Source: Streptomyces sp. S465
GTDB taxonomy: Bacteria > Actinomycetota > Actinomycetes > Streptomycetales > Streptomycetaceae
Reading direction: 5' to 3'
Length of the DNA stretch: 64,000 nucleotides
NCBI RefSeq assembly: GCF_026898115.1
Contig: NZ_CP114036.1
Location: 2,852,001 to 2,916,000, forward strand
The translations under genes were made by a program, and so were the position numbers. The notes under the pieces were generated by a model that did not search any database, was not told the origin of the DNA, and was given only the letters and a program-made list of their open reading frames with translations. Shown here piece after piece: positions 9,743 to 15,811 of this stretch; positions within the stretch are counted from its first letter, which is position 1; each line of letters begins with the position of its first letter.

Positions 9743-10363
9743 GTGATCCGGTTACTTCTGGTACACGATTCAGGTCTATTACGGTCGGCCCTGGCCTCTT
9801 TACTAGGGACCGAACCGGACATCGAGGCGGCCGCGTGCTCCTGGCGCGACGCGCGTAGCAGAGCCCGTTCCTTACAACCGCATGTGTGCGTGGTGGACGC
9901 GGACTGCCCGGCCTCCGACCGGGCGGACCGAAAAGGCGAGTTGGGGAAGATCGTGGCCTCCGTCTCCGGGGAGGGCGGTGAGTGCGGACTGCTGGTGCTG
10001 GTCAACGCGGAGCGACCGGGTCCGCTGCGCCGCGCCCATGAGGCCCGCGCGCTCGGCTACGTCGACAAGGACGCCCCGCCACAGCGGCTGATCGAGGCGA
10101 TCCGGCAGGTGGCGAGGAAGGAGCGCTATGTCGACGAGGCCCTGGGCTACGGCTTCCTCCAGGCGGCCGAGATCCCGCTGACCGAACGCGAGCTGGGCGT
10201 GCTGTCCCTGGCCGCCGACGGCGCCTCCATCCCGGAAATCGCCCGCACGCTCCACCTGTCCACCGGGACGATACGCAACTACCTGGCCGCGATCACCCGT
10301 AAGACCGGTGCGCGCAACCGCGTGGACGCCATACGCATATCCCAGGTCGCGGGGTGGGTCTGA
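9743..10363 (+). CDS. Orphan LuxR-family response regulator with degenerate receiver
   Basis: A 206-residue protein. Seen: an N-terminal receiver-like domain beginning IRLLLVHDSGLLRSALASLLG and a possible phosphoacceptor in VCVVDAD (D52/D54), with GYVDKDAPP carrying the conserved Lys. The usual pair of acidic residues after strand 1 is reduced to HD, so phosphorylation may be weak or absent. The C-terminus has a NarL/LuxR helix-turn-helix (LTERELGVLSLAADGASIPEIA, then STGTIRNYLAAI). GTG 9743 is preferred over GTG 9731 because ggtggag lies six bases before it. No kinase gene is adjacent. Targets unknown. Confidence 0.82.
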   Translation: MIRLLLVHDSGLLRSALASLLGTEPDIEAAACSWRDARSRARSLQPHVCVVDADCPASDRADRKGELGKIVASVSGEGGECGLLVLVNAERPGPLRRAHEARALGYVDKDAPPQRLIEAIRQVARKERYVDEALGYGFLQAAEIPLTERELGVLSLAADGASIPEIARTLHLSTGTIRNYLAAITRKTGARNRVDAIRISQVAGWV

Positions 10364-11235
10364 CCGGGACCGGCGACGACCCGAGGACGCCGGTCGGGGT
10401 GGTGGTCATGGCGCCGGTCGGGGTGGCTGTCGGAGCGCCGGTCGCGGTGGCGGTCGGGGCGCTGCTCAGGGTGGCTCTCGGGGCGCCGGTCGGGGTGGCG
10501 GTCGGGGCGCTGCTCGGGGTGGCTGTCGGAGCGCCCGTCGCGGTGGCGGTCGGGACGCCGGCCAGGGTGCCCGTCGAGGCGGCGTCTTCGCGATGCCGGT
10601 CGGGGTGGCCATCGGGACGCCCGTCGAGGTGGGCTCTTCGCAACGCCGATCGCAGCGCCAGTCAGGGCGCCGATCGGGATGCCGGTCAGGGCGCCCGTCG
10701 GGGTGGCGCTCCTCGCAACGCCGATCGCAGCCCGACCGGGACACCGGCCAGGACACCCCGCCGGGGTGGCATCTTCACACAGCCGATCGCAGCGCCGATC
10801 GCGACGCCAGTCGCAGCCCGGCCGGGACACCGGATGGCGACCTTCGCAACGCCCATCGGAACACCGGCAGGGTGGCGGTCAGGACGCCCGTCGGGGCGGC
10901 GCTCCTCGCAACGCCGGGTCGCAGCCCGACCGGAACACCGGCCAGGACAACCCGCCAGGGTGGCATCTTCACACAGCCGATCGCGACGCCGATCGCGACG
11001 CCAGTCGCAGCCCGGCCGGAACACCAGACGGCGACCTTCGCAACGCCCATCGGAACACCGGCCAGGGTGGCGATCGGGACGCCCGAGGTGGGCTCTTCGC
11101 AGCGCCGGTCGCAGCCCGGCCGGGGCACCCGTCGTGGCGCCCGCCTGCGCGCCCGTCGCAGCGCCCGTCGTGGCGTCGGCCGGGGCGCCCGCCGGCGCAC
11201 CCGTCGCAACACCCACCGGCGCACCCCTCGTGGCG
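10364..11235. repeat. 870-bp imperfect repeat field with a 194-bp duplication
   Basis: The whole gap between two convergent genes is repetitive. The first ~250 bp consists of short degenerate cggtcggggtggc-type units of about 24 bp. From about 10683 a 194-bp unit containing ggcatcttcacacagccgatcg is present twice (the landmark gcagcccgac occurs at 10727 and 10921), with partial copies before and after. Long open frames run through it in several phases but encode only Arg/Gly/Pro/Ala low complexity and are not credible genes. Confidence 0.85.
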
Positions 11236-11469
11236 CTATTCGTCGGGGGGAAAGACTTGCTCACCCGTGTCCGCCAGCCGGATGGCGATTGCCTCGACCG
11301 GACAGCCCTCGGCCGCCGTCAGCACCGGCTCGGAGGCGTCGGCCTCCGGCTCGGTGGGATGCGCCTGCCGCGCCCCGTCGAGCCGGAAGGCGCCGGGGGC
11401 GGTGGCGGCGCACATCCCCGAGCCGATGCACACGCCGCGGTCCACCTCGATCCGCCAGCGGTCCCCCAT
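11236..11469 (-). CDS. 3Fe-4S-type ferredoxin
   Basis: A 77-residue ferredoxin. Seen: three cysteines in the single-cluster pattern (C14-x5-C20 in VCIGSGMCAA, and C56 followed by Pro), with the central cysteine of a 4Fe-4S motif missing, as in P450-linked actinobacterial ferredoxins. The start overlaps the stop of the aldehyde dehydrogenase by one base (TGATG), so the two are co-translated. It could carry electrons to a P450 such as CYP125 elsewhere; the direct partner is unproven. Confidence 0.88.
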   Translation of the reverse strand: MGDRWRIEVDRGVCIGSGMCAATAPGAFRLDGARQAHPTEPEADASEPVLTAAEGCPVEAIAIRLADTGEQVFPPDE

Positions 11470-12935
11470 CAGCCCGGCTCCCCGTCCCAGCCCTGGGGCA
11501 GGTGGATCATCTTGTGCTCCAGATAGGCGGAGAACCCCTCCGGGCCGAACTCCCTGCCCAGACCGGAGTTCTTGTAGCCGCCGAACGGCCCGAGCATGTC
11601 GAGGCTGAAGGTGTTGACGGAGTAGGTGCCGGTGCGGACGCGCCGCGCGAAGTCGATGCCGTGCCCGACGTCCGCCGTCCATACGGAGCCCGACAGACCG
11701 TAGTCGGAGTCATTGGCGATCCGGGCCGCCTCCTCCTCGTCGCCGTACGGCAGCAGACAGATGACCGGGCCGAAGATCTCCTCACGGGCGATCCGCATGC
11801 CGTTGCCGACGTCGCCGAAGAGCGTGGGCTCCACGTACCAGCCGGTCTCCGGGGCCCTTGGGCGGCCGCCGCCGGTCAGCACCTTGGCGCCCTCGCGCTG
11901 CCCCAGCGCGATGTAGTCCAGCGACCGCTTCTGCTGCCGCCGTGCCACCAGCGGCCCGACCTGGGTGGCCGGGTCCAGGGGGTCGCCGACGACCAGGGCG
12001 GAGGCGGCGGCCACCAGACGCGCGGCGATCTCGTCGTAGTGGGCGCGCGGCGCGAGGATACGGGTCTGGGCCACGCATGCCTGTCCGTTGTTCATCCAGG
12101 CGTTGGGCACGATCCCGGCGACGGCCGTCTCCAGGTCCGCGTCCGGAAGGATCACCGCGGCCGATTTGCCGCCCAGTTCCAGCGTGACCCGGGTCAGTTG
12201 GCGCGAGGCGACCTCCATCACTCGTTTGCCGGCCGCGACCGAGCCGGTGAACGACACCTTGTCCACGCCCGGGTGGCCCACCAGATACTCGCTGACCTCG
12301 CGGTCGGCCGGAAGGATCGACAGCACCCCCTCGGGCAGCCCCGCCTCGGCCACGATCTCCGCAAGGAGGTAGGAGTCCAGCGGCGTCTCGGGCGACGGTT
12401 TGAGGATCACCGAGCACCCCGCGAGCAGCGCGGGCGCCAGCTTCGCGGCGGCCACGAACTGCGGCACGTTCCACGGCACCACGGCCGCGACCACCCCGAC
12501 CGGCTCCCGCCGCACCAGCAGCGGGCCGAGCACCCCGGCCCGCCGCTCCTCGTAGACGAAGTCGCGGGCCACGGTGATGGCCGCATCCCACACCATCATC
12601 GCGCCCAGCGCCTGGGCCAGGACGCTCCAGGAGTACGGGGAGCCGTTCTGCGCGCTGATGACCCGGGCGATCTCCTCGTGGCGTACGGCGATGGCGTCCT
12701 TGATCCGGGTGACCACCGCGATCCGCTCGTCCAGGCTCGTCCGGGCCCAGGGCCCCTCGTCGAACGCCGTCCGCGCCACCGCGACCGCCCGGTCCACATC
12801 GGCCCGGGAGGCGTGCGGCACCCGGCCGATGACCTCCTCGGTGTGCGGCGAGACGACCTCGATCACGTCCGTACCGGCCGGATCGGCCAACGCGCCGCCG
12901 ATGAAGAGCTGTCCGTGCTCGATGAGGTCGCTCAT
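11469..12935 (-). CDS. NAD(P)-dependent aldehyde dehydrogenase
   Basis: A 488-residue, full-length aldehyde dehydrogenase. Seen: the cofactor-binding VVPWNVPQFVAAAKLAPAL segment, the general-base Glu in TLELGGKSA, the catalytic Cys in NNGQACVAQTR, and the C-terminal GPFGGYKNSGLGREFG motif. ATG 12935 is preceded by gggagg; a slightly longer in-frame start is less likely. It overlaps a ferredoxin gene by one base and diverges from an MBL-fold gene across a short palindrome. Family knowledge: oxidation of an aldehyde to an acid. Nearby KstR/CYP125 genes suggest steroid or lipid aldehydes, which is an inference. Confidence 0.88.
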   Translation of the reverse strand: MSDLIEHGQLFIGGALADPAGTDVIEVVSPHTEEVIGRVPHASRADVDRAVAVARTAFDEGPWARTSLDERIAVVTRIKDAIAVRHEEIARVISAQNGSPYSWSVLAQALGAMMVWDAAITVARDFVYEERRAGVLGPLLVRREPVGVVAAVVPWNVPQFVAAAKLAPALLAGCSVILKPSPETPLDSYLLAEIVAEAGLPEGVLSILPADREVSEYLVGHPGVDKVSFTGSVAAGKRVMEVASRQLTRVTLELGGKSAAVILPDADLETAVAGIVPNAWMNNGQACVAQTRILAPRAHYDEIAARLVAAASALVVGDPLDPATQVGPLVARRQQKRSLDYIALGQREGAKVLTGGGRPRAPETGWYVEPTLFGDVGNGMRIAREEIFGPVICLLPYGDEEEAARIANDSDYGLSGSVWTADVGHGIDFARRVRTGTYSVNTFSLDMLGPFGGYKNSGLGREFGPEGFSAYLEHKMIHLPQGWDGEPG

Positions 12936-12990
12936 CGTCGAGCCTCCCGCCACTCGCCCCGATCTGACGCCGAATCTGACGCAGCATCAG

Positions 12991-13004: not shown

Positions 13005-13047
13005 GCGGTTATAGTGGGCAATGCTTGTGTCGAGGAGAGGGGCGCCG

Positions 13048-14124
13048 ATGGCGCGGGGGAGTCAGAGGACGCAGGTAGCGCGGGTGACGGAGCACGGCGG
13101 CGGGGTGTGGAGCATCCCGGTCCCGATCCCCGACAACCCGCTCGGGTACACCCTCGTCCACCTCCTCGACACCGACCGCGGCCCGGTCCTGATCGACACC
13201 GGCTGGGACGACCCCACCGCCTGGGACACCCTCACCGCCGGGCTCGCCGCGTGCGGCGCCTCCGTCTCCGACGTCCACGGCGTCCTCGTCACCCATCACC
13301 ACCCCGACCACCACGGGCTGTCCGGCCAGGTGCGGGAGGCGTCCGGTGCGTGGATCGCCATGCACGCCGCCGACGCCGAGGTCGTCCGCCGCACCCGCGA
13401 GGCCGAGCCCACCAGCTGGCTCGACTACCTCGCCGAGAAGCTCGCCGTCGTCGGCGCCCCCGAGGGCCACCTGGCCCCGCTGCGCGCGGCCCGCGCCTCG
13501 GGCCGCGCGGCCGCCCTCCCGCGCAGCCGCCCCGCCCAGCCCGACCGCGAGATCGTCCCCGGTGAACTCCTCGATCTGCCCGGCCGCCGGCTGCGCGCCA
13601 TCTGGACCCCCGGCCACACCCCCGGCCATGTCTGTCTGCACCTCGAAGAGACCCACCCGGCGGCCGGCGAGGGCACACCCGGCCACGGCCGGCTCTTCTC
13701 CGGCGACCATCTGCTGCCCGAGATCAGCCCGCACATCGGGCTGTACGAGGACCCCGACGACGCCACCGTCACCGACCCCCTCGGCGACTACCTCGACTCC
13801 CTCGAACGCGTCGCCGCCCTCGACCCGGCCGAGGTGCTCCCCGCCCACCAGTACGCCTTCACCGACGCCCCGGGCCGGGTGCGGGCCCTGCTGCGCCACC
13901 ACGAGGAGCGGCTGGCGGGGCTGCGTACCCTGCTGGTCGACGCGCCGCTGACGCCGTGGCAGCTGGCCGAGGCCATGGAGTGGAACCGCCCCTGGGCCCA
14001 GATCCCGCACGGCTCCCGCACCATCGCGGTCTCGGAGGCGGAGGCGCATGTGCGCCGGCTGGTGAAGCTGGGCAGGGCGGAAGCGGTGCCGGGCAGCAAT
14101 CCCGTGCGGTACCAGGCGATATGA
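13048..14124 (+). CDS. MBL-fold metallohydrolase with C-terminal winged helix
   Basis: A 358-residue metallo-beta-lactamase-fold hydrolase. Seen: VLIDTGWDDP, the HxHxDH motif as THHHPDHHG, a further metal His in WTPGHTPGH, an Asp ligand in LFSGDHLLP, and His in VLPAHQYAF. The C-terminal ~70 residues resemble the winged-helix tail of LACTB2-like hydrolases. ATG 13048 is preferred over ATG 13021 because gaggagagg lies 8 bases upstream. It diverges from the aldehyde dehydrogenase/ferredoxin pair. A thioester or lactone substrate is plausible but not shown. Confidence 0.85.
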   Translation: MARGSQRTQVARVTEHGGGVWSIPVPIPDNPLGYTLVHLLDTDRGPVLIDTGWDDPTAWDTLTAGLAACGASVSDVHGVLVTHHHPDHHGLSGQVREASGAWIAMHAADAEVVRRTREAEPTSWLDYLAEKLAVVGAPEGHLAPLRAARASGRAAALPRSRPAQPDREIVPGELLDLPGRRLRAIWTPGHTPGHVCLHLEETHPAAGEGTPGHGRLFSGDHLLPEISPHIGLYEDPDDATVTDPLGDYLDSLERVAALDPAEVLPAHQYAFTDAPGRVRALLRHHEERLAGLRTLLVDAPLTPWQLAEAMEWNRPWAQIPHGSRTIAVSEAEAHVRRLVKLGRAEAVPGSNPVRYQAI

Positions 14125-14163
14125 GTGACGCATGAGGGTGCCGGTCTTTCCGGCCGGGGACTA

Positions 14164-14215
14164 GGGTCCTTCTTCCGGATCTCCACGGCGTCGCGGAGCT
14201 CCGGAAGCAGGACCC
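14164..14215 (+). terminator. Interrupted long stem-loop after the MBL gene
   Basis: Three paired blocks, GGGTCCT/AGGACCC, CTTCCGGA/TCCGGAAG and CTCC/GGAG, form one hairpin between the MBL gene and the P450 gene. It most likely terminates the first transcript; an mRNA leader role for the P450 is possible. Confidence 0.6.
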
Positions 14216-14263
14216 CAGCCTTACCCGGCCTGGCCCACACACCCCGTACCAGCAGGAGCACGC

Positions 14264-15811
14264 GTGACGAGCCCCACCCGCGATTCCGCCCCCACTCCAG
14301 GTCCGGCAGCCGGCCCGACACCGCCCCCGGGCTGCCCCGCGCACTCCGGCCAGGCCCCGGCCGGGGGACGGCTCGAGTCGCTGCACGGCCCCGAGTTCGC
14401 CGCCGACCCGGCCGCCACCTACGCGCGGCTGCGGGAACACGGGACCATCGCCCCCGTGGAGCTGGCACCCGGCGTCACCGTCTCGCTCGTCACCGGCTAC
14501 CGGACCGCGCTGGACATCCTGCGCAGCCCCGAGACGTACTCCAAGGACGCGCGCCACTGGCAGGCCCTCTCCGACGGCACCATCCCCCTGGACAACCCCG
14601 TGGTGCCGATGATGATGTACCGGCCGAACGCGCTGTGCAGCGACGGCGAGGCGCATGGCCGGCTGCGGTCGGCGATCTCCGACACCCTCGATCGGCTGGA
14701 CATCCACGCGCTGCGCCGCTACGTGGAGCGGAGCGCCGACTTCCTCATCGACCTCTTCGGCCCCAAGGGCGAGGCGGATCTGCTCAAGGAGTACGCCGCC
14801 CGGCTCCCCCTGCTGGTCTTCAACCAGCTCTTCGGCTGTCCGCCGGAATTGAGCGACCGGCTCGTCAGGGCGCTCTCGGCGCTCTTCGAGATCACGGAGG
14901 ACTCCGAGCAGGCCAATACGCTGCTGGCGGAGACACTCTTCGAGCTCGTCGCCCGCAAACGGGCCGAGCCGGGACCGGACATGACGTCCTGGCTGATCGC
15001 CCATCCCGCTCAGCTCACCGACGAGGAGCTGGTCCACCAGATCGTCGTCCTCGTCGGCGCGGGTACCCAGCCCCAGCAGAACCTGATCTGCAACGGGCTG
15101 TTGCTGCTGCTGTCCGACGAACGGTTCGCGGGCGCTCTGACGGGCGGCACCATGCTGATCGAGGACGCGCTCAACGAGATGCTGTGGAAGGACCCGCCCC
15201 TGGCCAACTTCTGCGTCCACTACCCGCGCCGTGACGTGACGGTCGACGGACACCGGCTGCCCAAGGGCGAACCCGTCGTCATCAGCCTGACCGCCGCCAA
15301 CAATGACCCGTACCTGCTGGCGAACCGGCGCGGCAACCGGGCCCATCTGGCGTGGAGCGCGGGCCCGCACACCTGCCCCGCGAAGGACCCGGCCCAGGTC
15401 ATCGCCTCCGTCGCCATCGAGAAGCTCCTCGACCGCCTTCCCGACCTCGAACTGGCCGTGCCGGTCGAGCAGTTGGAGTGGCGGCCCGGCCCCTTCCACC
15501 GGGCCCTGGCCTCGCTGCCGGTGCGCTTCCCGCGGACCGCCGCCAAGTCCGATGAGGCGCTGGCCGAGATGGCCGCCGCGGCGAGCGCGATCGGCGCCGG
15601 GGCCGTGCTGGGCACGGCGCCCGCGGCCGCCACACCCGCCGACGGGGAGAACCCGCCGCAGGACGGTCCCGGTGAGACCGCGTCCGCGCCGGAACCGGAC
15701 ACGGCAGGCCCCGGCACGGCGGCCACCGGCACGGCAGCGGAACCCGGCGCCGGGCACGAGGCCCGGCGCCGCTGGTGGACGTCCCTGGCCCAGTGGTGGC
15801 GCCGCGGATAG
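14264..15811 (+). CDS. CYP157-type cytochrome P450 lacking the ExxR motif
   Basis: A 515-residue P450-fold protein, about 100 residues longer than usual. Seen: a heme-binding SAGPHTCPAKDP with Cys371, where most P450s have FGxGxHxCxG. At the K-helix position the ExxR triad is replaced by E305-M-L-W308. The I-helix reads VLVGAGTQPQQN without the acidic-Thr pair. These are hallmarks of the Streptomyces CYP157 family, usually linked to conservon operons; no conservon genes are seen here. The C-terminus carries an Ala/Pro/Gly-rich tail (about 425-500) ending in a Trp- and Arg-rich patch. Catalytic role uncertain. Confidence 0.83.
   Translation: MTSPTRDSAPTPGPAAGPTPPPGCPAHSGQAPAGGRLESLHGPEFAADPAATYARLREHGTIAPVELAPGVTVSLVTGYRTALDILRSPETYSKDARHWQALSDGTIPLDNPVVPMMMYRPNALCSDGEAHGRLRSAISDTLDRLDIHALRRYVERSADFLIDLFGPKGEADLLKEYAARLPLLVFNQLFGCPPELSDRLVRALSALFEITEDSEQANTLLAETLFELVARKRAEPGPDMTSWLIAHPAQLTDEELVHQIVVLVGAGTQPQQNLICNGLLLLLSDERFAGALTGGTMLIEDALNEMLWKDPPLANFCVHYPRRDVTVDGHRLPKGEPVVISLTAANNDPYLLANRRGNRAHLAWSAGPHTCPAKDPAQVIASVAIEKLLDRLPDLELAVPVEQLEWRPGPFHRALASLPVRFPRTAAKSDEALAEMAAAASAIGAGAVLGTAPAAATPADGENPPQDGPGETASAPEPDTAGPGTAATGTAAEPGAGHEARRRWWTSLAQWWRRG

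Follow-up and report, generated by a model that had tools for sequence, protein, structure and literature searches.

An orphan cytochrome P450 gene of Streptomyces sp. S465, related to the P450 genes (cvnE) that accompany conservons and encoded away from them, was analysed within a 64-kb window (the whole stretch of DNA under study; positions below are those of the window). In the reading we prefer, to which we give about an even chance, the product would be a CvnE-derived regulatory subunit of the heme-thiolate type, anchored through its tail and acting away from the operon. Its P450 core would do the sensing, in response to heme or a ligand, and the C-terminal Trp/Arg helix, joined to it by a flexible linker, would dock the protein to the membrane, to the sensor kinase of a conservon (in trans) or to some new partner. 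The sequence anatomy of the gene, its conservation, its common descent with conservon-linked P450s and its position in the genome are what the data show.

Gene and protein anatomy

The gene was read from a GTG start codon to a TAG stop codon. The features of the gene and its product are as follows.

14264-15811, + strand: CYP157-type, probably CvnE-derived, P450 gene, 515 aa (from profile, PDB match, tree and fold)
14254-14258, + strand: candidate ribosome-binding site AGGAG, 5 nt before the GTG, read in the sequence
14330-14344, + strand: CPxH motif G23-C24-P25-A26-H27, in an N-terminus predicted to be disordered
15059-15079, + strand: helix I, A266-Q272 (AGTQPQQ), with Q-P in the place of the acid-alcohol pair E-T (from alignment)
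15176-15187, + strand: K-helix E305-M-L-W308 where ExxR is expected (from alignment)
15344-15394, + strand: heme loop HLAWSAGPHTCPAKDPA, with Cys371 at 15374-15376
15536-15757, + strand: low-complexity linker, residues 425-498
15758-15808, + strand: C-terminal Trp/Arg helix (predicted), residues 499-515

The window protein belongs to the cytochrome P450 superfamily by its P450 fold and proximal Cys. It scored 29.6 bits against the Pfam P450 profile (PF00067; cut-off 22.8), a PDB sequence search returned PikC as the best match (1.4e-47) and also CYP154C1 (1.9e-37), and the fold predicted by AlphaFold2 (mean pLDDT 75.1, pTM 0.71) matched CYP154C5 best when compared with the PDB using Foldseek (E 7e-18). 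Among the structure matches listed, those to PikC (CYP107L1) and CYP154C5 had TM scores of 0.56-0.62 by query and 0.72-0.79 by target. PikC and CYP154C5 are oxygenases; in the alignment PikC has both ExxR and the acid-Thr pair, whereas the window protein has neither. P450 folds also serve as non-enzymatic partners, as in the TIGR04515 glycosyltransferase activators. Membership of that family was ruled out (86.8 bits against a cut-off of 343), and the window protein, set against it, keeps the heme Cys.

The heme loop runs H361-LAWSAGPHTCPAK and includes AWSAGPHTCPA and Cys371. Residues 425-515 make up a 91-residue Ala/Pro/Gly-rich tail ending in RRRWWTSLAQWWRRG, in agreement with the preliminary description of this DNA, which had given a tail of ~90 residues with a Trp/Arg end; the EMLW in place of ExxR, the atypical helix I and the modified heme loop that it listed are likewise present in the sequence. 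Within the linker a helix was predicted by AlphaFold2 for residues 430-447, and the rest is mostly of low pLDDT. An antisense 632-aa ORF (13859-15757) was taken as the usual shadow frame of high-GC DNA.

Core motifs across the family

Motifs were compared across 114 aligned P450 rows, comprising 11 from orphan loci (the window included), 89 conservon-linked ones, whose loci carry two or more cvn genes, and 14 that were neither. The alignment was made without L001, L010, L019 and L020; L090, L091 and L099 were cut at an in-frame stop, and the row pairs L025/L078 and L024/L086 look identical, the same genome having been drawn from two collections. Nine P450s of the same genome (L009 and L011-L018, from 35 genome matches) were used as canonical controls.

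Trp308 was found in all 11 orphan and all 89 conservon rows, and the corresponding residue is Arg in 9/9 canonical P450s. A sequencing error at the K-helix, which the preliminary description had named as a possible source of the Trp, was ruled out because Trp stands in 100/100 aligned rows. Within EMLW, Met is the residue nearly confined to this protein: EVLW or EALW stands in each of the ten remaining orphan rows, Met occupies this position in one of the 89 conservon rows, and EMLW recurs in one other genome of this species. Forms of this K-helix are known from the accessible text of PMC3599690, which, citing Rupasinghe 2006, describes CYP157 proteins with EVLW (CYP157A) and EQSLW-type (CYP157C) motifs in place of ExxR. 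The window protein shares their ExLW-type K-helix; it differs in that the CYP157 genes of that paper, as far as this text covers them, are conservon-linked and the window gene is not, and in that its helix-I acid is Gln. The CYP157-type assignment proposed earlier is thus upheld by E305-M-L-W308 and by relatives that are mostly EVLW, and is set by motif and relatives rather than by named CYP157 sequences; identity to the 43 relatives of alignment A1, which carry no CYP names, is 55-87%.

In helix I, Thr is replaced by Pro at position 270 in 11/11 orphan and 86/89 conservon rows (97/100). Position 269 holds the acid, as Glu or Asp, in 87 of the 89 conservon rows (one Asn and one Gln in the others). 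Among the orphan rows it holds Gln in 9/11, Glu being kept in the S. sparsogenes-type L046 and L047; Gln was also found in 8/8 orthologues from a further search, some of which may be of the same species. The window protein, with Q269-P270, therefore lacks the acid-alcohol pair, which in the canonical controls is E-T (8/9) or E-N (1/9). In the heme loop the CxG glycine is replaced by Ala (10/11 orphan, 87/89 conservon rows), and the strand Arg present in 8/9 canonical rows is replaced by His (11/11 and 77/89, respectively). His131, Arg135, His369 and Cys371, which we take from general P450 knowledge to be heme contacts, are found in 100/100 orphan and conservon rows.

By these comparisons most of the odd motifs of the window protein belong to the family and are nearly family-wide, so neither the loss of ExxR nor helix I nor the heme loop stands as the peculiarity that it was first taken for (ExxR loss being published, as described in the text available from PMC3599690). 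Loss of the helix-I acid, as aligned here, marks most orphan copies and is a new observation. Some P450s are active without the helix-I Thr, and the helix-I changes are by themselves no proof of oxygenase loss; CYP157C1 reportedly has normal P450 spectra.

Descent from conservon-linked P450s

From the alignment of 114 rows, 52 core sequences were taken for a maximum-likelihood tree, rooted at the midpoint, which falls on the long branch of L005. The 11 orphan rows formed one clade (99/99, present in all 200 bootstrap trees), nested in a 24-row clade (96/85) whose other members are conservon-type rows; the fork between the orphan clade and its nearest sister received 80/70 only. Common descent of the window gene with the conservon-linked P450s (CvnE) is well supported by these sequence relationships, and a single exit from the operon is the most economical history. 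In it, a conservon accessory P450 gene would, apparently on one occasion, have been copied or relocated to a conserved Streptomyces locus behind the MBL-hydrolase gene, in the ancestry of the S. violaceusniger/S. sparsogenes group. The window protein is 55-66% identical to the conservon-linked A1 rows and has the same K-helix and heme loop as CvnE and mostly the same terminal motifs, but its gene has no cvnA-D neighbours.

A close orthologue (E<=1e-195) was found in 9 of 392 genomes of the genus, the window's genome included, and in seven of the eight others the MBL gene lies upstream (L189 does not show it). S. violaceusniger carries the orphan L039 and a second copy, L096, on one contig, L096 standing beside cvnA-D; S. 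sparsogenes carries the orphan L047 and a second copy, L101, which lies near a contig end and shows cvnD. At L174 and L175 conservon-type P450s were seen without a cvn gene within 1.5 kb flanks; these are possible further orphans.

Locus and neighbouring genes

The neighbours referred to are as follows.

13021-14124, + strand: MBL-fold hydrolase gene (NF053820), upstream neighbour, in the conservon's place
11469-12953, - strand: aldehyde dehydrogenase gene, a neighbour of the MBL gene with or without the P450
11236-11469, - strand: ferredoxin gene, 77 aa, possible electron donor

No homologue of cvnA-D was found in the 64-kb window by tblastn with cvnA-D proteins at E<=1e-8, and the closest DUF742 gene in the genome lies ~194 kb away. 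The window P450 is not encoded beside cvnA-D and the genome's conservons lie elsewhere, as the preliminary description had stated in saying that no conservon is here. The genome-wide search for conservon partners that it proposed returned 10 DUF742 places, with some P450 paralogues beside conservons and none of these partners near the window gene. Since no cvn gene is near, a partner of the orphan must act in trans or be new.

At nine of the ten orphan loci L038-L047 the MBL gene lies upstream, the contig of L040 beginning at the P450. A search of 246 genomes from the genus gave matches to the MBL family itself, at E<=1e-100, in 159. Thirty of these MBL loci were fetched, of which one has the P450 (L153, 86%) and 29 have none within ~1.5 kb; aldehyde dehydrogenase is present in 28 of these 29, and a squalene-cyclase-like gene, which is downstream in the window too, comes next in 20. 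The MBL landing site is old and, among the loci fetched, usually without a P450.

The same neighbours could instead make the protein a working monooxygenase for a small molecule, fed by the ferredoxin within a small catabolic pathway that includes the aldehyde dehydrogenase and the MBL hydrolase. This would agree with the retained heme contacts and with the presence of the ferredoxin, aldehyde dehydrogenase and MBL genes at 9/10 orphan loci (L038-L047, L040 starting at the P450). However, the aldehyde dehydrogenase/MBL pair is independent of the P450, given its occurrence at 28/29 P450-less loci (the ferredoxin place lies beyond those flanks), the ferredoxin gene is on the opposite strand, 2.8 kb from the P450 gene, and the helix-I acid and Thr are both lost. 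The helix-I losses and the pairing without a P450 weaken the oxygenase explanation, and the nearby ferredoxin keeps it alive; we regard it as unlikely. As a separate observation, window positions 10308-11526, from a LuxR-type gene to the ferredoxin gene, are repeat-like in translation and open in several frames.

C-terminal tail

Tryptophan makes up 1.4% of core residues. At least two Trp were counted in the final 15 residues of 10/10 orphan proteins and 75/84 conservon proteins with a complete end (75/84 or 78/87, depending on how stops were handled) and of 0/9 canonical P450s of the same genome. Of the 9/84 conservon relatives with fewer than two Trp at the end, four also have fewer than two Trp/Phe. 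In a sample collected with the core alone, the tail not being used in the search, 14/29 proteins have at least two terminal Trp and 15/29 have fewer; several have Trp-Phe versions of the tail (e.g. WSSFLDVFR) and several have no tail. Most close homologues share the tail, and by the refuting rule set in the preliminary description it can no longer be called peculiar to the window protein.

Values of dN/dS for the orthologues of eight species, pooled over pairs and carrying no error estimate (L041, whose contig ends inside the gene, was left out), were 0.31 for the core, 0.88 for the linker (residues 447-496) and 0.19 for the last 15 residues. A frameshift artefact as the origin of the tail was ruled out by its maintenance at a pooled dN/dS of 0.19 in eight species. 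These values also bear on whether the orphan is a decaying duplicate of a conservon P450 whose function is gone. Its place away from the operon, the lost helix-I acid and the near-neutral linker would suit such a duplicate, but the core and tail values indicate purifying selection, and the orthologue frames are open to a proper stop wherever the contig does not end inside the gene; we hold decay to be very improbable.

A helix was predicted for residues 497-513 by AlphaFold2, at low pLDDT, with Trp504, Trp505, Leu508, Trp511 and Trp512 spaced onto one face and a net charge of +5. The hydrophobic moment was reached in 5.2% of shuffles for the window tail, which is marginal, and in 2.6% for L038; of the 11 tails tested, it was reached in <=6% of shuffles for four and in more for seven. 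By comparison of sequences, the Trp/Arg tail is common to most relatives and seems to be under selection. A function is made more likely by its retention in different genera and by its low dN/dS, and contact with a membrane or partner therefore stays plausible; the tail could hold the protein at the membrane (the site of CvnA) or on a partner.

N-terminal CPxH motif

CPxH was found on the N-terminal side of the domain in 11/11 orphan, 84/89 conservon and 17/29 core-only proteins and in 0/9 canonical P450s of the same genome. The scan covered the first 12 residues of the match and, reading upstream as far as the last stop, at most 60 residues before it, so that in some rows the motif may lie before the true start. 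In the core-only sample 16 proteins have CPxH and an aromatic-basic tail, one has CPxH only, four have the tail only and eight have neither (Fisher p 0.0009, shared descent ignored; one tail in this count, L178, is an ordinary P450 domain end). Heme-binding Cys-Pro motifs exist in other proteins, and CPxH, as a sequence, resembles a heme-regulatory or redox Cys-Pro motif. No report of either terminal motif was found among the literature matches listed, which is not proof of their being unpublished, and a term search of the text available from PMC13343842 found neither 'tryptophan' nor 'C-terminal'.

Known systems and proposed role

According to the accessible portions of these papers, CYP157 is present in all 48 Streptomyces species examined in PMC6408508, and S. 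coelicolor conservons 9 to 12 carry P450 genes (PMC8510531). In the portion available from PMC13343842, cvnE (P450) and cvnF (GAF) are said to accompany CvnA kinases without a sensor domain; CvnF8 is a binding partner of CvnA8 and stimulates both the ATPase and the autophosphorylation of that kinase, CvnE11 was placed on CvnA11 by AlphaFold2, and there is stated to be no prior biochemistry on either accessory type, CvnF having been tested there and not CvnE. The role proposed here is comparable to that of CvnF8 as an accessory modulator of a CvnA kinase (described in the same portion); CvnF8 is a GAF domain and the window protein a P450, and the two are likened by role, not by sequence.

With Cys371, His131, Arg135 and His369 kept, the window protein most likely still folds around a heme-thiolate, and with the helix-I Thr changed to Pro and the acid to Gln it would be poorly equipped for oxygen activation. 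A subunit that responds to a ligand or to heme would be consistent with a protein whose heme contacts are retained and whose oxygen-activating pair is lost. We thus infer for the window protein heme binding, oxygenase loss, sensing and docking. More tentatively, and as something we would sooner doubt than assert, the protein may be a P450 signalling subunit with CPxH and a Trp/Arg docking helix that left its G-protein operon in one Streptomyces group, gave up the remaining catalytic acid and now signals by way of a partner that is new or acts in trans.

ExLW in place of ExxR is already known as a published hallmark of CYP157; new are the position of a single orphan clade behind the MBL gene, the two terminal motifs and the loss of the acid that the majority of orphan copies show. 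The conserved end motifs suggest a role in signalling and not as an enzyme. A natural operon-free copy that has lost the acid too reveals which parts persist where catalysis is least to be expected. The two terminal motifs are direct handles on localisation, partners and heme.

Paralogues and the 6.98 Mb conservon

Paralogues L002 (61%), L003 (57%) and L005 (41%) adjoin conservons in the window's genome; L004 (50%) and L006 (39%) lie away from conservons. In the conservon of the closest paralogue, L002 (L119:5311-5857, G000:C1 ~6.983 Mb), the cvnD GTPase gene is mostly lost: a short remnant sits between cvnC and the P450 gene in G000 and in G601 (L194), which are of the same species, and cvnD is kept in five relatives (L096 and L195-L198). 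The orphan might accordingly be a spare CvnE serving in trans a diverged or damaged 6.98 Mb conservon. This would account for the cvnA-B-C-P450 arrangement with a cvnD remnant in G000 and G601, set against five relatives with cvnD, and for an orphan tail typical of conservon copies. However, the orphan is also kept where cvnD is intact (L039 with L096; G079, G120, G189 and G624), and the 6.98 Mb conservon still has its own P450, and we consider such a spare improbable.

Two relatives in the same genome, at L121:6874-8343 (50%) and L122:7445-8776 (39%), stand among other genes, away from conservons. A further P450 relative of 34% identity (L008, G000:C1 8058592) has RVHI aligned where ExxR would stand; its C-terminus is short and basic-aromatic, and its flanks hold no cvn gene.
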